From: Reichenbachiella sp.
Lineage (GTDB): Bacteria > Bacteroidota > Bacteroidia > Cytophagales > Cyclobacteriaceae
NCBI RefSeq assembly: GCF_033344935.1
Contig: NZ_JAWPMM010000001.1
Coordinates: forward strand, 2,342,001-2,406,000
Length of the DNA stretch: 64,000 nucleotides
Direction: 5' to 3'
Part shown: piece after piece, positions 1 through 48,161 of the stretch
Position numbering within the stretch: position 1 is the stretch's first letter
Layout: every line of letters begins with the position of its first letter
The notes under the pieces: model-generated
What the model saw: the letters and a program-made list of their open reading frames with translations, nothing else
Databases searched by the model: none
What the model was told of the DNA's origin: nothing
Translations under genes and position numbers: made by a program

Positions 1-499
1 CCAACATTCCCCAAACTGGAAAATTGAATGCATTGATGTGCACGGCTACGCCTTCCTTTGGTACCATGATATGCTGGCCGATGAAGCTACCGCCTTTGGA
101 TAGCGGAGCGGTATCGCCATCGATGTAGTGCGCTTCGTTGGGGAATTGTCTTCTCAAACTGGCATAAGCGAATAGGTTTCCGATGCCTCCCTCGATATCA
201 ATCCATGAATCTACCCGAGTCGCACCTGTTGCTTTACTCAATTCGTAAAACATTTCTTTTTTGGAATGCAGATGCATGGCCAAGGCTTTGAGCATCAATC
301 CTCTTTCCTGAAAGGTCATTTTGCGTAAAGCAGGGTTGCCTACGTTTCGACCATATTCCAGAATGTCTTTAAAATCCAGCCCATCTACAGAATGTGTAAA
401 GATCGGTTCGCCTGTGATGGCATGATGCAGCACCTCTCCATCGCCGCCTCCGGTGATCCATTGTCCTTGGGTGTAATGTTGTATTTTGGGTATTTTCAT
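1..499 (-). CDS. paaZ: PaaZ oxepin-CoA hydrolase / semialdehyde dehydrogenase, N-terminal part
   Basis: This is the first ~166 residues of the bifunctional ring-opening enzyme of aerobic phenylacetate degradation; the rest lies beyond the left edge. I translated it by hand on the minus strand from an ATG at 499-497. The visible part is the N-terminal aldehyde-dehydrogenase domain, with PaaZ-typical stretches: an HHAITGE segment near residue 30, SWIDIEGGIG near residue 110, and VHINAFNFPVWGML at the window edge. In the family, this domain oxidises the semialdehyde, and a C-terminal hotdog hydratase opens oxepin-CoA. The C-terminal half cannot be checked, so a dehydrogenase-only variant is not excluded. 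It is the last visible gene of the paa operon and is separated from paaY by a palindromic repeat. Confidence 0.9.
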   Translation of the reverse strand, partial: MKIPKIQHYTQGQWITGGGDGEVLHHAITGEPIFTHSVDGLDFKDILEYGRNVGNPALRKMTFQERGLMLKALAMHLHSKKEMFYELSKATGATRVDSWIDIEGGIGNLFAYASLRRQFPNEAHYIDGDTAPLSKGGSFIGQHIMVPKEGVAVHINAFNFPVWGML

Positions 500-513
500 T
501 TCGTTATTATTTA

Positions 514-579
514 CGTCATTGCGAACGGAGTGAAGCAATCTTTTCAATTGATGAGATCGCTTCGTGCCTCGCAATGACG
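514..579. repeat. REP-like imperfect palindrome between paaY and paaZ
   Basis: The outer arms CGTCATTGCG and CGCAATGACG are exact complements. The inner parts (GGAGTGAAGCAATCT and AGATCGCTTCGTGCC) pair imperfectly around an AT-rich centre. The element lies in an intergenic gap inside the operon and has no T-tract, so it does not look like a simple terminator. It resembles dispersed repeats common in Bacteroidota intergenic DNA (recollection, not searched). Confidence 0.7.
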
Positions 580-580
580 G

Positions 581-1177
581 TTAAGTTTGTTTAGTGCTCT
601 TCCAAGTTTTAAAATTCACAACCTGTTCAGGTCTATTAGGTTCGGCTTCTATCAATGGTTCGCATGGAATCAGTGCCTCCTTGCAATCTTTTGGCAACTC
701 TTGATACAATTTCGTGCCTTCTGTTTTCCACGCGATCATCTCATCTGAGACTTCTTTGATGATTTTGGCAGGATTCCCAGCAACTAGGCTTCGTGCAGGA
801 ATCTGCATTTCTCCCTTCACAAAAGCTAAGGCCCCGATGATGCATTCTTTGCCAATCACGGCATTGTCCATCAATACGGCATTCATTCCAATCAAAGCAT
901 TTTCACCGACCTCAGCACCATGTATGATGGCTCCATGTCCAATATGCGCTCCTTTTCTCAAATAGACTGTAGTACCTGGAAACATGTGAATGGTGCAGTT
1001 CTCCTGGACGTTACAACCATCTTCGATCACGATCTTCCCCCAGTCGCCCCGAATGGCTGCTGATGGACCTATGTAGACGTCCTTGCCGATAAATACATTA
1101 CCAGTCACAGTAGCCTGCGGGTGCACATAGGCACTCGGGTCAATCACGGGTTTCAGTCCTTTGAATTCAAATATCAC
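581..1177 (-). CDS. paaY: PaaY-like hexapeptide-repeat thioesterase
   Basis: This is a left-handed beta-helix protein of the gamma-carbonic-anhydrase-like family. In the paa pathway PaaY is a thioesterase that hydrolyses stalled CoA adducts, such as 2-hydroxycyclohepta-1,4,6-triene-1-formyl-CoA. Hexapeptide repeats run through most of the length, and histidines in GHGAIIHGAEVGENALIG are the expected metal ligands. The C-terminal helical tail ending near CEPLIEAEPNRPE matches E. coli PaaY in layout. There is no ATG start. The frame is open to a TTG at 1225, but that codon lies inside an inverted repeat. The GTG at 1177 gives a start VIFEFKGLKPV that aligns with known PaaY N-termini, so I chose it (about 198 residues). 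Confidence 0.85.
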   Translation of the reverse strand: MIFEFKGLKPVIDPSAYVHPQATVTGNVFIGKDVYIGPSAAIRGDWGKIVIEDGCNVQENCTIHMFPGTTVYLRKGAHIGHGAIIHGAEVGENALIGMNAVLMDNAVIGKECIIGALAFVKGEMQIPARSLVAGNPAKIIKEVSDEMIAWKTEGTKLYQELPKDCKEALIPCEPLIEAEPNRPEQVVNFKTWKSTKQT

Positions 1178-1192
1178 TTCGTTCTGGTCAAA

Positions 1193-1234
1193 GGTCGATA
1201 GTCCTTGGTCAGGATAGTTTGTCAACTATCGACC
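1193..1234. repeat. Inverted repeat at the 5' end of paaY
   Basis: GGTCGATAGT (1193-1202) and ACTATCGACC (1225-1234) are perfect 10-bp arms with a 22-nt centre. The repeat overlaps the upstream TTG start candidate of paaY and could affect its translation. Related sequence (GACTATGGAC) continues to about 1248. Confidence 0.6.
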
Positions 1235-1251
1235 AACGACTATGGACTAAT

Positions 1252-1866
1252 TCAACAATTCATATATTTCCAATTTCTTACTTTGCCTTCTGCAATCCAT
1301 TCGATTGCTTGGGCCATTCTTTTGTCTCTAGTTGCCTCTCGTTTCGCCTCAACTAGCCATTCGATATAATCTCGCCTTTGGGCATCTGTAAAGTTTTCAA
1401 ATGCTGCCTTTGCCATTAGGTTTTCGTCTAGGGCTTCGGAGAAATAGTCAGGCGTCGCTAAGGTTTTCTTTTTTTCATAGTCGACCTTGATGTTTTGTTC
1501 ATTGAGGAGTAGCGCTTGCTTGACGTAATCTTTAAGCACTTCTGTATTCACATCATCAAGCGTTTTGTAATGAATCATGCGGTTGCCTTTGTCTGCATCT
1601 TTTCCTTCTACAAATGCCTTGAAAGTATCTTGCATGAGGGAGCCTTTGTGAAAATTCACACTCACGTGATTTTTGAACCCTACGAACCAACAAATCATAC
1701 CATTCATGAAAAAACATGGCGCATTCCACTTCCAATCTTCTTGAATTCGGTCATCTACACTACTGACCGTATTTCTGATCAATTCCAAGATCGGTCGTTG
1801 TACATCTGACGCTTTAGCTAAGTAAGCATTGATGTTTTTGGTTGCGTCTGGGTTTGCTTTTGCCAT
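1252..1866 (-). CDS. DUF1801 / YdeI-like protein
   Basis: A 204-residue soluble protein. The N-terminal ~110 residues match the DUF1801 fold (YdhG/YdeI-like, distantly Fe-S-scaffold/frataxin-like), with the segment EDWKWNAPCFF and a conserved FVGFKNHVSVNFHKG strand region. The C-terminal part, with an ENFTDAQRRDYIEWLVEAKREATRDKR helix, is the YdeI/OmpD-associated 'DUF1905/OmdA'-type tail. Its function is unknown; distant relatives are annotated as OmpD-associated. It lies between paaJ (3-nt gap) and paaY in the same orientation, so it should be co-transcribed with the pathway. It is not a normal paa gene, so its presence may be incidental. Confidence 0.8.
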   Translation of the reverse strand: MAKANPDATKNINAYLAKASDVQRPILELIRNTVSSVDDRIQEDWKWNAPCFFMNGMICWFVGFKNHVSVNFHKGSLMQDTFKAFVEGKDADKGNRMIHYKTLDDVNTEVLKDYVKQALLLNEQNIKVDYEKKKTLATPDYFSEALDENLMAKAAFENFTDAQRRDYIEWLVEAKREATRDKRMAQAIEWIAEGKVRNWKYMNC

Positions 1867-1869
1867 GGT

Positions 1870-3075
1870 TTATACTCTTTCTAAAACAGCTGCGTAACCT
1901 TGTCCTACACCAATACACATCGTTACGAGCGCGTATTTCTTGTTTTTCAAATTCAACTCTAAAGCCGCAGAGTAGGCGATTCGAGCGCCGGTCATACCGA
2001 GTGGATGGCCGATCGCTATGGCACCACCATTAGGGTTTACTCTTGGATCGTTGTCTGCCAGTCCCCAGGCTCTGGTACAGGCTAAACTTTGAGCAGCGAA
2101 GGCTTCATTCAATTCGATCACATCAATGTCATCCATGGTTAAACCAGCTTTTTCTAATGCCTTCAATGAAGCAGTCACCGGACCGATACCCATTATTCTA
2201 GGCTCAACACCAACCACTGCCGAAGACACGATTCTCGCCATTGGTTTTAGGTTATAGTTTTTGATGGCATCTTCTGAAGCCACCAATACGGCTGCGGCAC
2301 CGTCGTTCAACCCTGAAGCGTTTCCAGCTGTGACTGAACCATCCTTTTTGAATGCTGGTCTTAATCCTGCCAAAGCTTCTAACGTTGTGTCTGCTTTAAT
2401 AAACTCATCGTCTGAAAATACGATGGGGTCTTTCTTTCTTTGAGGAATAGAAACAGGTGCAATTTCCTTAGCCAACCTTCCGCTGGCTTGAGCTGCTGCT
2501 GCTTTCTGCTGTGACCAAAAAGCGAAAGCATCCTGATCTTCTCTGCTGATATCATACTTGTCTACCAGATTTTCAGCAGTCATGCCCATGGCATCCGTGC
2601 CGTATTGCTCATGCATTTTAGGATTGACAAATCTCCAGCCAAAGGAAGAATCAAACATTTGTGAATCAGTACCAAAAGGTTTTGCTGACTTAGCTATCAC
2701 CAATGGACTGCGAGTCATGTGCTCTATACCGCCCGCTACGAAAACATCACCGTCTCCAGTTTTGATGGCACGATTAGCTTGAATGATAGAGGATAGCCCG
2801 GACGAACATAGTCTGTTGATGGTTTCGCCTGGGACGGAGTAGGGAAGACCTGCTAGTAGTCCAGCCATGCGGGCTACATTTCGATTGTCTTCACCTGCCT
2901 GGTTAGCACAGCCTAAAATACAGTCGTCTATGGCTGCAGGGTCTAGTGATGAGTTTCGGACCATCAATTCGCGAATGGCATGAGCCGCCAGATCATCTGT
3001 TCTTACTGGACTAAGTGTCCCGCCAAATTTCCCAATTGGAGTTCTTACTCCATCTATGATATAAGCTTCTTTCAT
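1870..3075 (-). CDS. paaJ: 3-oxoadipyl-CoA / 3-oxo-5,6-dehydrosuberyl-CoA thiolase
   Basis: A 401-residue thiolase of the PcaF/PaaJ group. It cleaves 3-oxo-5,6-dehydrosuberyl-CoA and later 3-oxoadipyl-CoA to succinyl-CoA plus acetyl-CoA. The catalytic residues are in place: nucleophile Cys90 in NRLCSSGLSS, His357 in GGAIAIGHPLGMTGAR and Cys387 in CIGVGQG. The N-terminus EAYIIDGVRTPIGKFGG is typical. It starts 1 nt after the paaI stop, consistent with translational coupling. The specific role rests on operon context; the fold alone would allow a general acetyl-CoA acyltransferase. Confidence 0.95.
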   Translation of the reverse strand: MKEAYIIDGVRTPIGKFGGTLSPVRTDDLAAHAIRELMVRNSSLDPAAIDDCILGCANQAGEDNRNVARMAGLLAGLPYSVPGETINRLCSSGLSSIIQANRAIKTGDGDVFVAGGIEHMTRSPLVIAKSAKPFGTDSQMFDSSFGWRFVNPKMHEQYGTDAMGMTAENLVDKYDISREDQDAFAFWSQQKAAAAQASGRLAKEIAPVSIPQRKKDPIVFSDDEFIKADTTLEALAGLRPAFKKDGSVTAGNASGLNDGAAAVLVASEDAIKNYNLKPMARIVSSAVVGVEPRIMGIGPVTASLKALEKAGLTMDDIDVIELNEAFAAQSLACTRAWGLADNDPRVNPNGGAIAIGHPLGMTGARIAYSAALELNLKNKKYALVTMCIGVGQGYAAVLERV

Positions 3076-3076
3076 A

Positions 3077-3493
3077 TTACTTCTCGCTCCATGGCGAGTC
3101 TTTTCTAAATACGGTTCCTTTAAATAGTGCCACCACTTCTTTCTCTTGGTTGGTGACGGTAATGCTATAATTTCCTAAGCGGTTCGCCAGATTATCTTCT
3201 TTGGCAACAGCCGTCAAAGTATCTCCTTCATTTACTGCCTTGGTATGCGAGATCGAAGTCTCAATGGATACCGCATGTCGCCCTTGTGAGTTGGATGCAA
3301 AGGCAAACGCACTGTCCGCTAGGGAATAGGTGATGCCACCATGGGCTATACCAAATCCATTGAGCATATTACTTTTGACCACCATACTAATTTGAGCAAA
3401 TCCTTGTTCAATTTTTTCAATAGAAATTCCAAGCCATTGACTAAAGGTGTCATGGGCGTACATTTGATCCACTATGGCTTTGGGTGTCATCAT
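3077..3493 (-). CDS. paaI: Hydroxyphenylacetyl-CoA thioesterase PaaI
   Basis: A 138-residue hotdog-fold thioesterase. PaaI releases CoA from dead-end hydroxylated phenylacetyl-CoA products. The diagnostic core GFGIAHGGITYSLADSAFAFASN has the HGG turn at 51-53 and a candidate catalytic Asp60, matching E. coli PaaI Asp61. The reading frame begins with two consecutive Met codons, so the start may be one codon later. The start overlaps the last base of paaH. Confidence 0.93.
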   Translation of the reverse strand: MMTPKAIVDQMYAHDTFSQWLGISIEKIEQGFAQISMVVKSNMLNGFGIAHGGITYSLADSAFAFASNSQGRHAVSIETSISHTKAVNEGDTLTAVAKEDNLANRLGNYSITVTNQEKEVVALFKGTVFRKDSPWSEK

Positions 3494-4650
3494 TAGTAAA
3501 AAGTCTTTTTGTCTCTCACCATTCTACGTAGCAGTGGGCTGCATCTATATCTGTCTTCAAGATATTCGTCATACAATTGATCCATATGCTTGACACAATT
3601 GTCAATACCAAACTCATCTGCCCATCTAAGCAACCCAGCCGGGTAATTCACCCCTTTGGTCATCGCCAAATCGATGTCTTCTTTGCTGGCAATGTTCCAG
3701 AAAAGTGCATCGGCGGCTTCATTAATCAGCATTACTAGTATTCTATTGAAAATCTGCAACCCTAAGGTCTTGTCAAAGTAAGGTTCTGGTTTCGTAGCTC
3801 CTTCTGAATAATCGTAATAGCCTTTGCCTGACTTACGCCCGAGATAACCAGCTTCCGCTAATCTTTTCTGAGTAAAGGCAGGCTTGTATCTGGGATCATA
3901 AAAGAAGGATTTAAACACTGTTTCTGTAACGGTGTAGTTGATGTCATTGCCTATGAAGTCCATTAAGGTAAATGGCCCCATTCTAAACCCACCGATCTCG
4001 GTCATGGCCCAGTCTATAGTTGCCACATCGGCTATGCCTTCTTCTAGTATTCTCAACGCTTCTCCATAGAATGGACGAGCTACTCGATTAACAATAAAGC
4101 CAGGTGTGTCCTTAGTTTGGACTGTAATTTTTCCCCAGCTGTCAATGGAGGATCTCGCTTCCCTAAGCACATTGTCATCAGTTTGAACAGCAGGTATGAT
4201 CTCTACTAATGGCATTAAAGGTGCCGGATTGAAGAAGTGGATTCCCAATACTCTCTGAGGAATGTCGCAGGCGCTAGCAATAGCAGAAACCGATAGGGAG
4301 GAAGTATTGGTTGCAATGATGCAGTTCGTGCTAACAATACTTTCCAGTTCTCTGAAAATTTGCTTTTTAATATTCAAATCTTCAATGATGGCTTCAATGA
4401 TCAGATCGCACGAGTTGAATTCTTGCAATTGATCTGTGAATTGAATCCTATCTAATATGGCTCCGGCCTCAGATTTTGAAAGTTTCCCTTTTTCAGCTAG
4501 TCGATCCAATATTTTTTTGAGGCTTTGCTTGGCCTTGTCCAGCATAGGCTTGCTACTGTCCAGCAAAATAACTTCATGGCCAGCAGTAGCTGCTACTTGC
4601 GCTATACCGCTTCCCATGGACCCTGCACCGATAATTCCAATTACTTTCAT
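3493..4650 (-). CDS. paaH: 3-hydroxyadipyl-CoA dehydrogenase
   Basis: A 385-residue NAD-dependent L-3-hydroxyacyl-CoA dehydrogenase. The Rossmann motif GAGSMGSG is at residues 8-15, and the catalytic His138 lies in GIHFFNPAPLMPLVE. A 3HCDH C-terminal domain is followed by a second, partly degenerate C-terminal domain, the usual layout for PaaH. It converts 3-hydroxyadipyl-CoA to 3-oxoadipyl-CoA. It overlaps paaG by 4 nt (ATGA-type coupling) and paaI by 1 nt. Confidence 0.94.
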   Translation of the reverse strand: MKVIGIIGAGSMGSGIAQVAATAGHEVILLDSSKPMLDKAKQSLKKILDRLAEKGKLSKSEAGAILDRIQFTDQLQEFNSCDLIIEAIIEDLNIKKQIFRELESIVSTNCIIATNTSSLSVSAIASACDIPQRVLGIHFFNPAPLMPLVEIIPAVQTDDNVLREARSSIDSWGKITVQTKDTPGFIVNRVARPFYGEALRILEEGIADVATIDWAMTEIGGFRMGPFTLMDFIGNDINYTVTETVFKSFFYDPRYKPAFTQKRLAEAGYLGRKSGKGYYDYSEGATKPEPYFDKTLGLQIFNRILVMLINEAADALFWNIASKEDIDLAMTKGVNYPAGLLRWADEFGIDNCVKHMDQLYDEYLEDRYRCSPLLRRMVRDKKTFY

Positions 4651-5426
4651 TTCCCTACAAACTCTGGTTTACGCTTTTCTAAAAAGGCTTGGACACCTTC
4701 CTTGTAATCTTCGGTTTTACCTGCTTTGGACTGATAAATTTCTTCTTGATCCAATTGCTCATTGAGGTTGTTGGTTAAACCTGAATTGAGTAATTTTTTG
4801 GTGTAAACCAATCCTAACGTTGGCATTTTGGCTATGGTCTGAGCGATCTTCATAGATTCTGTCTCGAATGTTTCTACGCTAAAAACCTTATAAAGCATAC
4901 CAAGCTTCTCTGCATCATTAGCTGAGACTTTATCGCCCATCATCATCAGTGCGCTGGCTTTTTGGAAGCCAATCAGTTTGGGAAGAAAAAAGGTTCCTCC
5001 ACTGTCAGGTATCAAACCGATTTTACTAAAGGCTTGGATAAAAGATGCCGTTTCAACTGCCACTACAATATCACATGCCAAAGCCAAATTTGCTCCAGCA
5101 CCTGCTGCTACACCATTGACTGCACAAATCACAGGCTTTTCAATTTCTCTAATCCGACGAACAATGGGATTGTAGTGCTCGGCAACAATATTCTCAATAA
5201 AAGGTGCATCAGACGCAGTCACCTCAGCCAAATCCTGTCCTGCACAGAAAGCTTTTCCATTGCCTGTGAGGTAGATAGCTCTTACCTCATCATTTTGACC
5301 ATACTGATCCAGAAGCTCCTGGAAGCCAAGTGCCATTTCACGATTGAAACTATTGAATACATCAGGTCTGTTGAATCGAATGATGGCAATGCCATCTTGG
5401 ATTTCGTGCTGTAAGGTTTGGGTCAT
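4647..5426 (-). CDS. paaG: 1,2-epoxyphenylacetyl-CoA isomerase
   Basis: A 259-residue crotonase-fold protein. PaaG isomerises ring-1,2-epoxyphenylacetyl-CoA to oxepin-CoA and shifts a later double bond. The first oxyanion-hole strand AFCAGQDLAEV (about 60-70) and the second NGVAAGAGANLALACDIVVA (about 105-124) are clear, and SGGTFFLPKLIG follows. There is no membrane or targeting sequence. PaaF, the hydratase partner, is not seen as a separate gene in the window; PaaG is the only crotonase here. Confidence 0.93.
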   Translation of the reverse strand: MTQTLQHEIQDGIAIIRFNRPDVFNSFNREMALGFQELLDQYGQNDEVRAIYLTGNGKAFCAGQDLAEVTASDAPFIENIVAEHYNPIVRRIREIEKPVICAVNGVAAGAGANLALACDIVVAVETASFIQAFSKIGLIPDSGGTFFLPKLIGFQKASALMMMGDKVSANDAEKLGMLYKVFSVETFETESMKIAQTIAKMPTLGLVYTKKLLNSGLTNNLNEQLDQEEIYQSKAGKTEDYKEGVQAFLEKRKPEFVGK

Positions 5427-5447: not shown

Positions 5448-5942
5448 TTAAATACATTTAAAATAATCGAACGGTTCCAGACAATCCCTGCATTTGTATT
5501 GAGCCTTGCAGGCCGTGGAGCCAAATTCACTCACTAAAACAGTGTTCTTAGATTCGCACTGTGGACAAGGCACGGTTTCGTCTTCGAGAAACAATGACCT
5601 TTTGGAAGTACTTCCTTGAGGAGGCGCGATGCCATAAGCTTTGAGTTGCGCTCTGCCGTTTTCTGTTAGCCAGTCTGTTGTCCAAGCGGGTTGTAGTACG
5701 GTTTTTACTTCCACATTTTCATACCCTTCGTCTATTAGACATTTTTTAATGTCAGATTCAATGGTATTCATGGCGGGACAACCCGAATAAGTAGGAGTGA
5801 TAGTGACCACTAGGTGATCGGCGATTTCAATATGCCTGATGATACCCATGTCTACCACAGAGAGCACAGGGATTTCTGGATCCATGACTTTGCGAAGACT
5901 GTTGAGTACTTGCTCCGGTGATATGGTTTTGCTATTTACCAT
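5448..5942 (-). CDS. paaD: Phenylacetyl-CoA epoxidase maturation protein PaaD
   Basis: A 164-residue protein with an N-terminal MIP18/DUF59 (SufT-like) domain containing MDPEIPVLSVVDMGI and PTYSGCPAMNTIE. It has a C-terminal zinc-ribbon/Fe-S-type finger with CxxC pairs at 126-129 and 151-154 and extra Cys145 and Cys163. PaaD is needed for an active PaaABCE complex, probably acting in metal-cofactor assembly. Its start overlaps the end of paaC by 7 nt. Confidence 0.94.
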   Translation of the reverse strand: MVNSKTISPEQVLNSLRKVMDPEIPVLSVVDMGIIRHIEIADHLVVTITPTYSGCPAMNTIESDIKKCLIDEGYENVEVKTVLQPAWTTDWLTENGRAQLKAYGIAPPQGSTSKRSLFLEDETVPCPQCESKNTVLVSEFGSTACKAQYKCRDCLEPFDYFKCI

Positions 5943-6691
5943 TCAGCGCCAGGGTATGCTCTTTGTAAGTGTTGCATTTCTGCTAATAGATAGCCCAAGT
6001 GCTCTGAGTGCATACCAGTTTTTCCTCCGGTTTGATTCCAAGAACTTTCTGGAATAGTTAAGGTTGCTTCACGCAAATGTGCTTCGATTTCTTTTTTTAC
6101 GGTATCCGCAATTCTATTTAAATCAGCACCTATACCAGATTCTGCAATTTGCTGATCCAATTCATCAGACGTAATGCTTTCGAAGGCATATGACCAAAAA
6201 TGATCCAAAGCAGTTTGCATTTTCGCTTGACTTTCTTCCGTACCGTCGCCCAATCGTAAGACCCATTGACCACTCCATCTTTTGTGATAGGTGACCTCCT
6301 TGATGCTTTTTTGTGCAATGGCCGCAATATTTTCATTTTTGCTGGAAGCCAATTCATTTAACAAATGGAAATGAAACACATCGAATAGGTATTGTCGAGT
6401 GATGGTATAGGCAAAGTCAGTATTCGGCTGCTCCACCAATAGGAGGTTTTTATATTCTCTATCATTTCTAAGAAATGCGATGTCATCTTCACTTTTTTCT
6501 CCTCCGGTCAATTCAGATGCGTATTGGTAATAGTTTCTGGCTTGACCGATTAAGTCGAGTGAAATATTAGTCAAAGCAATATCTTGTTCGAGCACTGGGC
6601 CATGTCCACACCATTCTGCCAGTCGCTGTCCCAGAATCAGGCAGTTGTCTGCAAGCCTGAGAACGTAGTCATATGTATTTTGATCTTTCAT
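5936..6691 (-). CDS. paaC: Phenylacetyl-CoA epoxidase structural subunit PaaC
   Basis: A 251-residue ferritin-like helical protein. In the family PaaC pairs with PaaA but lacks a catalytic di-iron centre. Typical segments are LILGQRLAEWCGHGPVLEQDIALTNISLDLIGQAR (N-terminal helix) and IKEVTYHKRWSGQWVLRLGDGTEES in the middle. It starts 4 nt downstream of paaB and overlaps paaD by 7 nt, in the canonical A-B-C-D gene order. Confidence 0.95.
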   Translation of the reverse strand: MKDQNTYDYVLRLADNCLILGQRLAEWCGHGPVLEQDIALTNISLDLIGQARNYYQYASELTGGEKSEDDIAFLRNDREYKNLLLVEQPNTDFAYTITRQYLFDVFHFHLLNELASSKNENIAAIAQKSIKEVTYHKRWSGQWVLRLGDGTEESQAKMQTALDHFWSYAFESITSDELDQQIAESGIGADLNRIADTVKKEIEAHLREATLTIPESSWNQTGGKTGMHSEHLGYLLAEMQHLQRAYPGAEW

Positions 6692-6695
6692 CAGC

Positions 6696-6983
6696 TTACA
6701 TGTTTTTCAATTCTTCCGGCAAATTGTAGAAAGTAGGGTGGCGGTATACCTTGCTTTGGGCTGGCTCGAATAATTCCGCACCTTCTTCTGGATCGGAGGC
6801 CGTTATCTCACTAGAAGGAACGACCCAAATACTGACACCTTCGCTTCTGCGTGTGTATACATCTCTGGCATTTTCTACAGCCATCTCGGCGTCAGCAGCA
6901 TGGAGACTGCCCACGTGCTTGTGGTTGATACCTGATTTACTTCTTATAAATATTTCCCAAAGGGGCCAATTCTTGTTGCTCAT
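6696..6983 (-). CDS. paaB: Phenylacetyl-CoA epoxidase subunit PaaB
   Basis: A small subunit of the multicomponent epoxidase, about 95 residues from the ATG at 6983. The frame extends three codons further to a TTG at 6992, but the ATG gives the standard start MSNKNWPLWEIFIRSKSG. KHVGSLHAADAEMAVENARDVYTRR and GVSIWVVPSSEI are hallmark PaaB stretches. PaaB bridges PaaAC heterodimers in the complex. The gene sits between paaA and paaC with short gaps. Confidence 0.95.
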   Translation of the reverse strand: MSNKNWPLWEIFIRSKSGINHKHVGSLHAADAEMAVENARDVYTRRSEGVSIWVVPSSEITASDPEEGAELFEPAQSKVYRHPTFYNLPEELKNM

Positions 6984-7000
6984 GATTATCAAATTTGGGG

Positions 7001-7939
7001 TTATGCTGCTGATTTTTTCTTTCTTTTTTCTGAGTAAGCTAAAGCTGCTTCTCTCACCCAGGCACCTTCTTCATAGGCCTTCTTTCTGGTGGCGAGTCGC
7101 TCCTTATTACAAGGGCCGTTGCCTTTCACTACAGCCCAGAATTCGTCCCAGTCGATAGGTCCAAAGTCGTAGTGGCCTGTTGCTTCATTCCATTTCAAAT
7201 CTGGGTCTGGAATGGTAATACCCAAAATATCGGCTTGCGGTGCCGTGGCGTCTATAAACTTTTGTCTTAGCTCGTCATTGGTAAAACGCTTGATTTTCCA
7301 ATTCATGGACTGCGCCGTATGAGGTGAGTCTGCATCGTTGGGCCCAAACATCATAATTGACGGCCACCACCATCGATTGAGCGCGTCCTGTGCCATGGCT
7401 TTTTGTTCGGGTGTGCCATTGCATAGACTGAGCATGATTTCATACCCCTGGCGCTGGTGGAAACTTTCTTCTTTACAAACTCTCACCATCGCACGTGCAT
7501 AGGGGCCATAGGAACATCTGCAAAGCGGTACTTGATTCATGATAGCCGCACCATCCACGAGCCAACCTATGGCACCCATATCCGCCCAAGTTAAGGTAGG
7601 GTAGTTGAAGATGGACGAGTACTTGGCCTTGCCAGTATGCAATTGATCGAGAAGATCATCTCTTTCTACACCGAGCGTTTCGCACGCACTATATAAGTAT
7701 AATCCATGTCCGGCTTCGTCTTGAACTTTCGCCAAGGCAGCTACTTTTCTTCTAAGAGAAGGGGCACGCGTGAGCCAGTTGCCTTCTGGTAGCATGCCAA
7801 CAATCTCAGAATGGGCGTGCTGCGAGATTTGTCTGATCAATGTTTTGCGATAGTCATCGGGCATCCAATCTTTGGGCTCGATTTTCTCTTCTGCGTCCAG
7901 CTTTCGCTGAAATTCTTTTTCTAAATCTATCGTACTCAT
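7001..7939 (-). CDS. paaA: Phenylacetyl-CoA epoxidase catalytic subunit PaaA
   Basis: A 312-residue di-iron ferritin-like oxygenase subunit that epoxidises the aromatic ring of phenylacetyl-CoA with O2. The iron-ligand helices are visible: [20 protein letters not shown] (ExxH) and [15 protein letters not shown]. The length and the C-terminal [15 protein letters not shown] match the family. Translation starts at an ATG at 7939, about 50 nt after the paaE stop. Confidence 0.96.
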
Positions 7940-7989: not shown

Positions 7990-9063
7990 CTAATTTTCGT
8001 CGAAACTCAAAACTACCTTGTCTGTTTTTGGGTGTGCCTGGCAACTCAGCACATACCCTCGGTCAATTTCATCTTGCTCCAAGGCGTAATTGACAGCCAT
8101 ATCCACTTCTCCTTCGATCAACTTCGCTTTGCAAGTACAGCAGACACCACCTTTGCAAGCATAGGGGAGGTCTGCACCTTTTTTAGTGGCAGCGTCCAAA
8201 ATAGAGTCGTTGCTGTTGTAATCGAAGTCCATTTTTACACCATCGATCTGAATGGTGATTTTACACTTCACTTTCTCAAATGATTCTTTCTTCTGACCAG
8301 TACCTGTTCCTAATTTGCCAACTGGACTAGTGAAAAGTTCGATATGAACTTTTGACTTGTCGACATTTAAATCCAATAATGCCTCTTGAATGCCTAACAT
8401 CATGGGTTCTGGGCCGCAAATGAAAAACTCATCTGTAGAATTTAGATCAATGATGGTTTTTGAAAATGCTGTTACTTTTTCTTTGTCTACAAACCCTTCG
8501 AACAATGGGAATTCGGTATGCTCTTCGCTGAACACATGGAAGATATTCAATCGTTCCATGTAAGTGTTTTTCAAGCCTTCAATTTCCTCTTTAAACACAA
8601 TCGTATCTGTACCTCGGTTGGCATAGATAAGTGTGAACTCACTATGAGGTTCCGTGTCCATAACGGACTTTAGAATGGAAATGATTGGAGTAATACCACT
8701 GCCACCAGCGAATCCCACATAGTTTTTGGATTGTTCGGCGTTTAGCTCAGAATTGAAACTACCGGAAGGCGGCATGACTTCTAATTCTTCACCTGGTTGT
8801 AGCTTTTCGTTGGCATAGGTAGAAAATGCTCCTCCATCTACCTTTTTAATGGCCACTTTCAAGCGATTTTCTTTTGGGCTACTGCAAATGGAGTAGGAGC
8901 GTCGAACATCTTCGCCATCAATAATTTTTTTAAGTGTGACGTGTTGGCCTTGCTTGTATTTGAAAATGGCCTGGTGCGCAGGAGGCACCTCAAACTCTAA
9001 AGAAACACAGTCGTATGTTTCTTTGATGAGTTTGGATATTTTAAGTGGGTAAAAATGGTGCAT
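7990..9063 (-). CDS. paaE: Phenylacetyl-CoA epoxidase reductase PaaE
   Basis: A 357-residue electron-transfer subunit. It has an N-terminal ferredoxin-NADP-reductase FAD domain (RRSYSICSSP near residue 55), an NAD(P) domain (FAGGSGITPIISILKS), and a C-terminal plant-type 2Fe-2S ferredoxin with ligands Cys303, Cys308, Cys311 and Cys341. It passes electrons from NADPH to the PaaA iron site. It lies upstream of paaA, unlike the E. coli order where paaE follows paaD. A 1-nt gap separates it from kmo. Confidence 0.95.
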   Translation of the reverse strand: MHHFYPLKISKLIKETYDCVSLEFEVPPAHQAIFKYKQGQHVTLKKIIDGEDVRRSYSICSSPKENRLKVAIKKVDGGAFSTYANEKLQPGEELEVMPPSGSFNSELNAEQSKNYVGFAGGSGITPIISILKSVMDTEPHSEFTLIYANRGTDTIVFKEEIEGLKNTYMERLNIFHVFSEEHTEFPLFEGFVDKEKVTAFSKTIIDLNSTDEFFICGPEPMMLGIQEALLDLNVDKSKVHIELFTSPVGKLGTGTGQKKESFEKVKCKITIQIDGVKMDFDYNSNDSILDAATKKGADLPYACKGGVCCTCKAKLIEGEVDMAVNYALEQDEIDRGYVLSCQAHPKTDKVVLSFDEN

Positions 9064-9064
9064 T

Positions 9065-10408
9065 TTAGTTTGGGATGATGTTGTTTGATTCGACGAAGGA
9101 TTTAAACTCTCCTCTTTCTATGATTTCTAAGATGTCTTCTTTATTAGACAGTTCGTCTAAAATTAATTCTTGCTGATTTCCTTTCCTCACAGCTTCGCTG
9201 TAAGGCGTATTGGTAAAGGATACCATGGAATATTGAGGAATAAATTGCTCTGGAAAGTCCTCATACAACGCTCTTTCTATTTTCTTTCTTTTCAAGAACC
9301 ATTCTTGCCCAACCAAGTCTCTCATTTCGATGAAATTCTTAAGCGCTAAATCAGCAATTGCGTCTGCGTCTGGTTTTCTTGAAGTCTCAAATTCTTTAAA
9401 AAGTTCAATCCAATTATCCCCATGCTTATCCATCATTTCATTGAGAATGGATACATCCTCAAATCCTGCATTCATGCCTTGACCATAAAAAGGAACTATG
9501 GCATGAGAAGCGTCTCCAATGAGCGCTACTTTACCCTCGTAAGTCCAGGGAAAGCATTTGATTATGACTAAGGGTGAAGTTGGATTTTCATTAAATAAGT
9601 CAATGAGATTTGGGATTAGCTTTAAAGCATCGGGAAACTTGTCTTCAAAGAATCCTTTGATTTCTTCTTCACTTTTTAATTTCTCGAAAGAGTTTTCTCC
9701 TTCGAAGGGTAGAAATAATGTACAGGTAAAACTTCCATCTGGGTTAGGTAAAGCAATAAGCATGTGACTACCACGTGGCCAAATGTGCAGCGAATGTTTG
9801 TCCATTTGGAAGTCGCCTTTTTTTGCCTCGATGCTCAACTCTTTATAATCATGAGAGATGTACTCTTGAGAAAAATTGAAATGTTTCAATTTTTGCATGA
9901 CCGAGCGTACTGCAGAAAATGCTCCATCTGTTCCAAATATAATGTCAGAATCGCTGGTGCTAATGTTACCATCCGGCAATTCAAAAGCCGCAAGTGGGGT
10001 ATCCAAATCTATTTCAATACATTTATGCTCGAAGTTAAAGTTGACATTTTCATACTGATCGGCATGATCGATTAGAATTTGATTCAGTCCTGCTCTAGAA
10101 ATAGAATAGATAGCTTCCCCTTCTTTTCCATATGGCTGGAAGGTAAGAGATTCATCTATTCCATGCATCATTCGGCCGTTCATGGCAATGGCAGCTTCAC
10201 GAACCTTATCGCCAGCACCGACGAGATCTAGTGCTTTCCAACCGCGTGTGGAGCAAGCCATATTAATAGATTTGCCAGCAGAAATGTTTGCATTTCGAAT
10301 GTCTGGTCTTCTTTCGAAAACTTCTACCGTGTATCCACGCTTACCGAAGAGTGCGGCTAGTAATGAGCCAACTAATCCTGCGCCTACTATGGTTATTCGC
10401 TTGCTCAT
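9065..10408 (-). CDS. kmo: Kynurenine 3-monooxygenase
   Basis: A 447-residue FAD aromatic hydroxylase. The N-terminal GxGxxG (GAGLVGS, 8-14) and the C-terminal FAD loop GDASHAIVPFYGQGMNAGFED are present. The central stretch with IWPRGSHMLIALPNPDGSF and FTCTLFLPFEG closely resembles characterised KMO enzymes rather than generic salicylate or p-hydroxybenzoate hydroxylases. The C-terminus has no long membrane anchor, as in bacterial KMOs. Predicted reaction: L-kynurenine + NADPH + O2 to 3-hydroxykynurenine. It overlaps tetR by 4 nt and is followed by paaE after 1 nt, so it is the second gene of the paa operon. Confidence 0.9.
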   Translation of the reverse strand: MSKRITIVGAGLVGSLLAALFGKRGYTVEVFERRPDIRNANISAGKSINMACSTRGWKALDLVGAGDKVREAAIAMNGRMMHGIDESLTFQPYGKEGEAIYSISRAGLNQILIDHADQYENVNFNFEHKCIEIDLDTPLAAFELPDGNISTSDSDIIFGTDGAFSAVRSVMQKLKHFNFSQEYISHDYKELSIEAKKGDFQMDKHSLHIWPRGSHMLIALPNPDGSFTCTLFLPFEGENSFEKLKSEEEIKGFFEDKFPDALKLIPNLIDLFNENPTSPLVIIKCFPWTYEGKVALIGDASHAIVPFYGQGMNAGFEDVSILNEMMDKHGDNWIELFKEFETSRKPDADAIADLALKNFIEMRDLVGQEWFLKRKKIERALYEDFPEQFIPQYSMVSFTNTPYSEAVRKGNQQELILDELSNKEDILEIIERGEFKSFVESNNIIPN

Positions 10409-10992
10409 TTCTTTTCTATTCCTTTCATTAACAATCCTATGATAGTCTCTTTCACAGCTTCTACATCCATGTCTTTATTAGAGTGATACCAATGCTGGAG
10501 CCAACGAATAGAAGATAACATGGTGTATAATGCCACTTTTGAATCACTTACGATTACCGTACCATCTGAAATGCCTTCTTCAATGATCGCGAGAAAGTGA
10601 TTCTCATAATCTCGCCTTTTAGATAGAAACTCTCCGCGCTCTGGTTCAGTCAAATGACGCCATTCATCATTCATGACACTTGCTAGAGGAGAACTCATGG
10701 CATTGATTTCAACATGAAGCAATAAGAGCTCTTTGATTTTTTCAATGGCAGAATCTTTGGAGTTCAAGATGACTTCCATTTTGGAAGTATAGGTGTCCGC
10801 CAAGGAAAAGCAGATTTTTGAAAGGATTTGTTCTTTTCCTTTAATGTGGTTGTACAAACTGGCAGCTTCTACACCTACTTTGGCAGCAATATCACGCATC
10901 GTAGTGGCAGAATATCCCTTTTCTCTAAAGAGGGTGGCTGATTCTTCCAGGATGATTTGCTTTTTAGTCTTTTTTGTGTTGGTTTTAGACAT
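10405..10992 (-). CDS. TetR-family regulator of the paa operon (PaaR-like)
   Basis: A 195-residue TetR/AcrR repressor. The N-terminal helix-turn-helix is TMRDIAAKVGVEAASLYNHIKGKEQIL (about 27-52). The C-terminal ligand domain is helical and resembles regulators of aromatic or fatty acyl-CoA catabolism. The gene is first in the paa transcript, and a perfect 18-bp palindrome ends 8 nt before its start codon. Autorepression relieved by an acyl-CoA such as phenylacetyl-CoA is the simplest model; the ligand is inference. Confidence 0.85.
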   Translation of the reverse strand: MSKTNTKKTKKQIILEESATLFREKGYSATTMRDIAAKVGVEAASLYNHIKGKEQILSKICFSLADTYTSKMEVILNSKDSAIEKIKELLLLHVEINAMSSPLASVMNDEWRHLTEPERGEFLSKRRDYENHFLAIIEEGISDGTVIVSDSKVALYTMLSSIRWLQHWYHSNKDMDVEAVKETIIGLLMKGIEKK

Positions 10993-10999
10993 CTCTCAA

Positions 11000-11017
11000 A
11001 ACTAACAAATGTTAGTT
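11000..11017. promoter_or_regulatory. Probable TetR operator upstream of the paa operon
   Basis: AACTAACAAATGTTAGTT is a perfect palindrome of two 8-bp arms (AACTAACA/TGTTAGTT) around AA. It lies 8 nt upstream of the tetR start. Read on the minus strand it contains TAACATTTG, one base longer than the TAnnTTTG -7 element. A bound repressor would therefore sit on or beside the promoter. Confidence 0.7.
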
Positions 11018-11075: not shown

Positions 11076-11621
11076 TTAACCCCAATTCATTCTTTCAGAT
11101 AAATTGGCAATATGTGCTAAGTGATGATTGCAGTGCCAGGCGTATAACAGGATATTTTCATGCAATTGAATCTTACGGCCATTTTGAGGATGAATGAAAG
11201 CTTTACTCATATCCTCCTTGGATAGATTGTTTAGTAAGTTTGTCCATTTTAAATGGAGGGCAGTTAATAAAAGTAGGGAAGGTTCGATGGCATCATATCT
11301 AGCGTCGCTTAATTCAGCCCAGGCTTTTTCATCATAGGCTTTTATGGTCGGTTCCTGTTCTGTGATGGTCCATTTGAATCGGATATAGCTATTCATATGA
11401 CTATCTGCCAAATGATGAACCACCTGACGTACCGTCCAACCGTCTGGTCTATAAGGCGTGTTGAGTTGTTCGTCATTAAGATATTGAACGGTTTCTCGAA
11501 GTACTTGCGGAAAGTGGCAAATGGTGTGAATACCATTCTCAATTTCAGTTTGAGAAAAGGACTCTGGAAATTGAAATTTGCCAATTGGATATTTTAGATC
11601 TTCTAGTTCTTGTATACTCAT
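11076..11621 (-). CDS. DinB-family YfiT/bacillithiol-transferase-like protein
   Basis: About 181 residues from the ATG at 11621 (MSIQELEDLKYPIGKF); the frame extends to a GTG at 11645 but the ATG fits the family start. It is a four-helix-bundle DinB protein with a three-histidine metal site: HHLADSHMN in the middle and HCNHHLAHI near the C-terminus, plus the conserved DGWTVRQVVHHLADSH helix. Bacillus YfiT/BstA relatives are bacillithiol S-transferases, and many Bacteroidota make bacillithiol, so a thiol-transferase detoxification role is plausible. Confidence 0.8.
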   Translation of the reverse strand: MSIQELEDLKYPIGKFQFPESFSQTEIENGIHTICHFPQVLRETVQYLNDEQLNTPYRPDGWTVRQVVHHLADSHMNSYIRFKWTITEQEPTIKAYDEKAWAELSDARYDAIEPSLLLLTALHLKWTNLLNNLSKEDMSKAFIHPQNGRKIQLHENILLYAWHCNHHLAHIANLSERMNWG

Positions 11622-11713
11622 GCTTTTTTTATTTAAAGTAAACACACAGAGATCACAGCTGCCATGATCCTTATTGAGAAGAACTAATAGGTTAGATTAG
11701 TTTATTGCAAGGT

Positions 11714-47156: not shown

Positions 47157-48161
47157 ATGAGCAAGAACCTTAAAATCGATATGCACACGCATATCCTGCC
47201 TGAAAAATTACCCGACTTTGCAAAGAAGTTTGGGTATGGAGATTTCATCCATTTGGTGCATAAGCGACCTCACTTTGCCGATATGATGAAAGGAGGAGAG
47301 TTCTTTCGCGAAATCAACGAAAACTGCTGGGATCCAAAAGTGCGTATTAACGAATACGAAAAATTCAACACCAACTATCAGGTAGTTTGTACCATACCAG
47401 TGATGTTTAGCTACTGGGCGAAGGCAGATGATTGTTTGGAGCTTTCGATGTTTTTGAATGATCACATCGCTCAGGTGGTCAACGATTATCCTAAGAATTA
47501 CATTGGACTGGGAACTGTGCCCATGCAATCCGCAGCGCATGCGGTAAAGGAGTTGCATCGAATCAAAGAACTGGGAATGCCAGGCATACAGATAGGTTCA
47601 AATATCAATAATAAGAATTTGAACGAACCAGAGTTTTATCCCATTTGGGAAGCTTGTGAGCAACTCGACTTGGCGGTGATGATACACCCTTGGGAAATGA
47701 TGGGTAGGGAGCATATGTCGAAGTATTGGCTGCCTTGGCTGGTAGGGATGCCGGCAGAGACTTCTAGAGCAGCTTGTTCACTGATCTTTGGCGGAGTAAT
47801 GGAAAAGTATCCAAAAGTAAGATTCAACTTCTCTCACGCAGGTGGGTCTTTGCTGGCCACCATTGGTAGGGTAGAGCATGGCTTCAATTGTCGCCCAGAC
47901 TTGGTGGCCATCCACAATCCAATCAACCCTAGGGAATATTTGGGTAAGTTCTGGGTGGACTGTATCACTCATGATTTACCATATCTCAAGTACATCATCG
48001 AGATGATTGGCTCTGAGAAAGTTACTTTAGGTACGGATTATCCATTTCCTTTGGGCGATTTAGAGATTGGTAGGTTTATCGAAGAAAGTGATTTACCTCA
48101 ATCTGATAAGGACAATATTATGTATCAGTCTACGCTTGATTGGTTGGCGTTGGATTTGTAA
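47157..48161 (+). CDS. ACMS decarboxylase (ACMSD)-like amidohydrolase
   Basis: A 334-residue TIM-barrel metal-dependent decarboxylase. The N-terminal DMHTHILPEKLPDFAKKFGYGDFI has the HxH pair (His10, His12). The middle WDPKVRINEYEKFNTNYQVVCTIPVMFSYWAKADDCLELSMFLNDHI and MIHPWEMMGREHMSKYWLPWLVGMPAETS, and the late LGTDYPFPLGDLEIGRFIEES, match 2-amino-3-carboxymuconate-6-semialdehyde decarboxylase. It diverts kynurenine-pathway flux toward 2-aminomuconate. The substrate is inferred from similarity. Confidence 0.88.
   Translation: MSKNLKIDMHTHILPEKLPDFAKKFGYGDFIHLVHKRPHFADMMKGGEFFREINENCWDPKVRINEYEKFNTNYQVVCTIPVMFSYWAKADDCLELSMFLNDHIAQVVNDYPKNYIGLGTVPMQSAAHAVKELHRIKELGMPGIQIGSNINNKNLNEPEFYPIWEACEQLDLAVMIHPWEMMGREHMSKYWLPWLVGMPAETSRAACSLIFGGVMEKYPKVRFNFSHAGGSLLATIGRVEHGFNCRPDLVAIHNPINPREYLGKFWVDCITHDLPYLKYIIEMIGSEKVTLGTDYPFPLGDLEIGRFIEESDLPQSDKDNIMYQSTLDWLALDL

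Follow-up and report, generated by a model that had tools for sequence, protein, structure and literature searches.

A kynurenine 3-monooxygenase gene in the phenylacetate operon of three Reichenbachiella species, behind a putative PaaR-type operator

Features of the locus

The window analysed here is a stretch of 64,000 nucleotides from the genome of Reichenbachiella sp. (assembly GCF_033344935.1, contig NZ_JAWPMM010000001.1, positions 2,342,001 to 2,406,000). Its first 11 kb contain, on the minus strand, genes in the order tetR-kmo-paaEABCDGHIJ-DUF1801-paaY-paaZ. The first gene (10405..10992) encodes a TetR-family regulator with TetR_N and TetR_C_24 domains, and is directly preceded by a palindrome, AACTAACATTTGTTAGTT (11000..11017, same strand), a putative operator of the TetR (PaaR) type. 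The second gene, kmo (9065..10408), encodes a kynurenine 3-monooxygenase (KMO) of 447 amino acids, identified from PDB sequence scores and substrate-site residues. It is followed by paaE, the reductase subunit of phenylacetyl-CoA epoxidase (7990..9063; TIGR02160, 440 bits, cut-off 420.8), paaA (7001..7939; TIGR02156, 555 bits, cut-off 280), paaB (6696..6992; TIGR02157, 141 bits, cut-off 85), paaC (5936..6691; TIGR02158, 293 bits, cut-off 133) and paaD (5448..5942; TIGR02159, 196 bits, cut-off 108).

Further along the same strand are a paaG-like isomerase gene (4647..5426; TIGR02280, 307 bits, cut-off 345) and a paaH-like 3-hydroxyacyl-CoA dehydrogenase gene (3493..4650), whose product passes the general model NF006124 (514.8 bits, cut-off 508) and stays below the PaaH model TIGR02279 (448 bits, cut-off 669). 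The next frame (3077..3493) matched no NCBIfam model at a threshold of 1e-40; it is kept in loci L038 and L054 and is presumably a paaI-like thioesterase gene, a name taken from the gene order and partly from general similarity. It is followed by paaJ, encoding 3-oxoadipyl-CoA thiolase (1870..3075; TIGR02430, 610.7 bits, cut-off 597), a DUF1801/OmdA-domain protein above the PF08818 and PF13376 cut-offs (1252..1866), a paaY-like hexapeptide thioesterase gene (581..1225; TIGR02287, 248 bits, cut-off 319.6) and the part of paaZ that encodes the N terminus (2..574). The remainder of paaZ lies outside the window, in the adjoining locus L053, and there scores 647.6 bits with TIGR02278 (cut-off 562.8). 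PaaG, PaaH and PaaY are thus below their own equivalog cut-offs, and PaaE, PaaA, PaaB, PaaC, PaaD, PaaZ and the thiolase above theirs.

The open reading frame coordinates confirm the two tight junctions described in the first-pass annotation: kmo overlaps tetR by 4 nt (10405-10408) and is separated from paaE by 1 nt (9064). The same annotation had kmo co-transcribed with the epoxidase genes, and to judge from this layout tetR, kmo and paaE very probably form one transcript.

Positions 15442-18354 of L053, beyond paaZ, code for an enoyl-CoA hydratase together with a fused 2-oxoacid dehydrogenase E1. A G+C-rich stretch (about 18370-18450 of L053) in the gap that separates paaZ from the hydratase gene appears repeat-like by eye and may be a dispersed repeat that marks a join. 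On the other side of the operon, a gene for a YfiT-type bacillithiol transferase (window 11076-11645; 247.6 bits, cut-off 160) occupies the interval between tetR and an SCP2 gene in the three kmo-bearing species of the genus, and is absent from that interval in the five genomes of the genus that lack kmo.

Assignment of the flavoprotein

Compared with the sequences of the PDB, the product of kmo scored 238-351 bits with ten KMO sequences and at most 52 bits with all others. The best of the latter was 6-hydroxynicotinate 3-monooxygenase (52 bits). The highest-scoring NCBIfam model was that of the violacein oxygenase VioC; this candidate was rejected, the score of 219.6 bits being far below the equivalog cut-off of 760. 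At a threshold of 1e-30 the protein is the single KMO match in its genome. Two structures which we take to be KMO of Pseudomonas fluorescens (PDB 6fox and 5fn0) match it with 277 bits; a further residue of that enzyme, H320, is replaced by Y308 in the window protein. The nine substrate-site residues of the P. fluorescens enzyme that are named in PMC6376250 (R84, Y98, N369, Y404, L213, I224, L226, F238 and M373) are all identical in the window protein, as R79, Y93, N358, Y393, L207, I218, L220, F232 and M362. On these scores and the nine retained kynurenine contacts a non-KMO hydroxylase is rejected, and neither gives any indication of an altered substrate. The gene product, already named KMO in the first-pass annotation, is by sequence an ordinary FAD-dependent KMO, a class A flavoprotein predicted to convert L-kynurenine to 3-hydroxykynurenine.

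Distribution within the genus

Eight genomes of the genus, 97-100% complete, were compared. Three of them contain both kmo and paaA, about 1.1 kb apart with paaE in between, and five contain neither. Kynureninase and ACMSD (2-amino-3-carboxymuconate-6-semialdehyde decarboxylase), which acts later in the kynurenine route, follow the same division, being present in the three and absent from the five. A TDO-like gene was found in 7/8 genomes and NadA in 8/8, and 3-HAO is present in all three kmo species.

The operon order and both junctions, the 4-nt overlap and the 1-nt gap, recur in R. faecimaris DSM 26133 (G197; locus L038) and in a third species (G196), whose KMO proteins are 87% and 76% identical to that of the window. 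The adjacency of kmo and paaE is therefore not peculiar to a single genome. Across the three species kmo shows pS values of 0.76-0.84, near saturation, and pN values of 0.085-0.143; that order and junctions are unchanged despite this divergence at synonymous sites indicates that the arrangement is more than chance. The three species are close kin, with NadA proteins 95% identical to that of the window's genome (84-88% in the other five), so the joint presence or absence of the genes may be one evolutionary event.

In four of the kmo-less genomes (G199, G195, G194 and G198) the run nhaP-gc-scp2-tetR leads directly into the enoyl-CoA hydratase gene that in the window's genome sits beyond paaZ. 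Between tetR and the hydratase gene, a genome thus either carries the block from kmo to paaZ or lacks it. The fifth (G200) lacks both tetR and the hydratase gene in the corresponding neighborhood. In the four species the 2-oxoacid dehydrogenase E1 is also missing from the interval between the hydratase gene and its neighbor, which makes a second point of difference at this locus. For the paa block, a gain in three species and a loss in five are both compatible with these data, and neither is favored here.

The kynureninase gene of G196 (L055 9456-10756; G196:C1:1740456-1741756) lacks one nucleotide that its kin possess and so falls into two overlapping frames. The deletion, located outside a homopolymer, is either a mutation or a sequencing error; kmo is intact in this genome. 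Outside the genus, the kynureninase gene of G004 (L061 10413-11686), located just before kmo, is likewise split into two frames.

Comparison with other Cytophagales

KMO was found in 130 of 194 genomes of the order. For PaaE a cut-off of E <= 1e-80 was applied, since the second match in the window's own genome (38% identity, 6.8e-70) shows that lower scores belong to other reductases; it retained 18 other genomes among at least 145 matched at 1e-50. All 18 possess KMO, and in none of their paaE neighborhoods was kmo detected by blastp of open frames or by tblastn, the neighborhoods covering 9.5-16 kb each and several of the assemblies being drafts. The proposed survey of kmo-paaE adjacency across the order thus yielded the three Reichenbachiella species and 0/18 of the other neighborhoods, and within this sample tetR-kmo-paaE is a derived state confined to one clade of marine bacteria.

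The gene preceding paaE varies among these relatives. It is tetR, without kmo, in five of them (G072, G074, G128, G152 and G030), and in G072 the TetR has the same two domains as that of the window (TetR_N and TetR_C_24). Another five have a gene for a 449-residue PaaK-like protein in this position; the one scanned scored 555 bits with TIGR02155, below the cut-off of 646. Fourteen neighborhoods contain paaA, two (G074 and G128) only tetR-paaE, and two (G001 and G002) only paaE.

As for kmo itself, it adjoins kynU in all 15 genomes sampled from the family outside the genus, which suggests that the kynurenine genes are probably ancestral to the genus and were lost in five species. The kynurenine clusters of other Cytophagales, such as that of G181 with hao-ACMSD-ORF-kynU-kmo in one place, comprise the same enzymes, and KMO is 47-59% identical to the rows compared from outside the genus. 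In the window's genome, by contrast, the paa operon contains kmo, while ACMSD lies 37 kb away and hao-kynU 1.3 Mb away. Six records of KMO on plasmids were found, each below 60% identity. Among the literature matches listed, which consist of titles and abstract openings and cover few subscription papers, there is no description of kmo inside a paa operon.

Phylogenetic analysis

The KMO tree was built from 35 rows, leaving out G172 and G130 with their long branches. It places the genus as sister to one Chitinophagales metagenome-assembled genome (MAG; support 100/98), whose KMO is the closest found outside the genus (59% identity). The MAG has a cluster hmgA-hpd-kmo-tdo, in which hpd passes TIGR01263 and hmgA and tdo are presumed identities. 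Its KMO, too, lies beside another aromatic amino acid route, the neighbors being tyrosine genes there and phenylacetate genes in Reichenbachiella. In the kynureninase tree (34 rows, without the MAG and without the broken kynU of G196 and G004) the genus groups with f1, Algoriphagus and f10 (99/98), its own family. AU tests on KMO rejected a group of the genus with family f1 and Algoriphagus without the MAG (p 0.009) and a group of the genus with three rows of f1 (p 0.008). The best KMO tree does contain a group of the genus, f1, Algoriphagus and the MAG (84/72), so that lateral transfer of kmo into the genus is no more than possible; the MAG may have been the recipient.

Regulator and operator

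The palindrome upstream of tetR is kept in all three kmo species save one central base, while the flanking spacer has drifted, and the sole perfect copy of CTAACANNTGTTAG in the window's genome lies at this site. The more general box CTAACNNNNGTTAG precedes tetR in all seven genomes of the genus that have this gene; in the four species that retain tetR without kmo and paa genes it lies 6-115 nt upstream of the frame. None was found in the examined stretch of G200, which lacks tetR. The boxes of loci L091 and L094 were seen with the CTAACNNNNGTTAG pattern and missed by a stricter one.

Among the paaE neighborhoods of the order, 16/18 contain the box, against a mean of 0.2 and a largest value of 3 loci in 40 first-order Markov simulations. 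In all 16 a site lies at most 124 nt from the start of paaE, paaA, tetR or the 449-residue PaaK-like frame (longest frames), and no paaA-D were detected at the two loci without a box. The box is absent from all 16 kmo neighborhoods and from the stretches with hao-kynU, tdo or ACMSD. A scan of the whole genome for CTAACANNTGTTAG with at most one mismatch gave five places, versus 22 in the reversed control, and hence no enrichment for this narrow pattern, which would miss CTAACGNNCGTTAG. A second site, CTAACAGACGTTAG (L075 1501-1514; G000:C1:527142-527155), is located 33 nt upstream of a gene for a TonB-dependent receptor with a Plug domain, possibly a further target of the TetR protein.

PaaR-type repressors govern paa genes in Thermus and Burkholderia, according to PMC9493321 and PMC2770484. 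For Thermus PaaR, PMC9493321 gives the consensus CNAACGNNCGTTNG, and PMC6651687 another site, AACnAACGTTnGTT. The window site matches 8 of the 10 fixed bases of CNAACGNNCGTTNG, and AAC/GTT half-sites are common to all three. By sequence it fits the paa-linked AAC-N4-GTT operator of the TetR-family PaaR type. According to these three reports, the systems of Thermus thermophilus and Burkholderia cenocepacia are alike in having a TetR-type repressor and an inverted-repeat operator before paa genes. The window's operon is unlike them in that a gene for a tryptophan-breakdown enzyme stands between the regulator and paaE, and in that the box is kept in relatives without paa genes. The window TetR is probably of the PaaR type, with putative binding to the box. 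Its candidate ligand is phenylacetyl-CoA, in line with a title cited in PMC9493321/PMC2770484, 'Phenylacetyl coenzyme A is an effector molecule of ... PaaR'. Four species that lack kmo and paaA have nevertheless kept both TetR and the box. Their retention there means that the ligand may be something other than phenylacetyl-CoA, and is the chief caution on the PaaR-type reading.

Other genes of the kynurenine route

The window contains ACMSD on the other strand (47157..48161, plus), 37 kb from kmo. Its best PDB score is 388 bits, all 13 PDB matches at E <= 1e-20 are ACMSD, and it is 65% identical to the protein encoded between hao and kynU in G181. Kynureninase and 3-HAO of the same genome are both above their NCBIfam cut-offs, kynU being 1.3 Mb from kmo. 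The TDO-like gene passes PF03301 (84 bits, cut-off 34.9) and falls below TIGR03036 (99 bits, cut-off 390.7). Thus hao-kynU, tdo and ACMSD are at separate loci, apart from the kmo-paa operon.

Interpretation

The reading preferred here, with a probability of about 0.6, is that kmo moved into a PaaR-type operon and that tryptophan breakdown is thereby gated by a phenylacetate signal. In the ancestor of the three species kmo would have left a kynU-kmo arrangement and become inserted between the TetR repressor gene and paaE, as the second gene of tetR-kmo-paaEABCD and the genes that follow, behind the PaaR-type operator. Phenylacetyl-CoA formed from phenylalanine or other aromatics would relieve repression by TetR, whereupon tetR, kmo and the paa genes would be transcribed jointly, and the cell would produce KMO at the same time as the phenylacetyl-CoA epoxidase. 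KMO would then hydroxylate kynurenine and feed the catabolic branch, which kynureninase, 3-HAO and ACMSD, encoded elsewhere, would continue. Given the position of kmo, kynurenine hydroxylation would follow phenylacetyl-CoA, presumably to the benefit of the cell. The first-pass annotation had suggested one regulator for the degradation of tryptophan plus phenylalanine. Of this, the part concerning kmo, which stands behind a PaaR-like box, is retained, and the part concerning hao-kynU, tdo and ACMSD, which are elsewhere and without a box, is not; the regulator would control no more than one of the pathway's steps. With one step captured, either hydroxylation by KMO gates the pathway, or the gene has ended up in a position that is accidental but serviceable.

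The latter, judged somewhat unlikely, holds that kmo was relocated by chance and retained because any active promoter suffices, KMO acting in the kynurenine route and the link to phenylacetate having no physiological meaning. It agrees with kmo alone being linked while the other genes are scattered and boxless, with the restriction of the arrangement, in this sample, to a single clade whose three species are closely related, and with the loose placement of kynurenine genes in some relatives too (L058, L059 and L069). It is opposed by the constancy of order and junctions at near-saturated synonymous sites, and by the shared presence or absence of kmo, paaA, kynU and ACMSD over the eight genomes, which is perhaps one event. 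Since no such box accompanies the other kynurenine genes and the three species are so closely related, functional coupling of tryptophan and phenylacetate breakdown is put no higher than plausible.

Two further explanations concern the reaction that KMO serves. That the flavoenzyme acts on a ring compound derived from phenylacetate, such as a tropone-type shunt product, and not on kynurenine would suit the place of the gene, with tetR on one side and paaE on the other. Class A hydroxylases are able to switch substrate, and the distant PDB matches include the structure of a tropone 2-monooxygenase. That match reaches 37 bits, against 351 for the best KMO, all nine kynurenine-site residues are retained, and this sole KMO match of the genome (1e-30) is accompanied by kynureninase, 3-HAO and ACMSD; use on an aromatic intermediate of the phenylacetate pathway, raised in the first-pass annotation, is unsupported and quite improbable. 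Still less credible is a role in de novo NAD synthesis via quinolinate with an incidental paa location. KMO, kynureninase and 3-HAO together can yield quinolinate. NadA, however, is present in all eight genomes, including the five without KMO, so that the kynurenine branch is not needed for NAD, and ACMSD, which diverts an intermediate away from quinolinate, accompanies KMO in all three species. A needed NAD role is contradicted by these findings; ACMSD and NadA together point to breakdown rather than NAD supply.

Gating by a phenylacetate signal, the preferred reading, can be extended tentatively, at rather less than even odds: phenylacetyl-CoA would be a signal shared by the breakdown of several aromatic amino acids, the PaaR-type repressor coupling tryptophan to phenylalanine and phenylacetate catabolism through its capture of KMO as the one gating step, and a loss from the middle of the operon in the sister lineage would have taken the remaining kynurenine pathway with it. 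The seven genomes with tetR, of which three carry the kmo-paa block and four lack it at this very site, offer a ready natural comparison, and the CTAACNNNNGTTAG box is a simple, testable signal for PaaR-type regulons in Cytophagales. If the preferred reading is true, Reichenbachiella would provide a concrete case of cross-pathway regulation brought about by moving one gene into the operon of another pathway.
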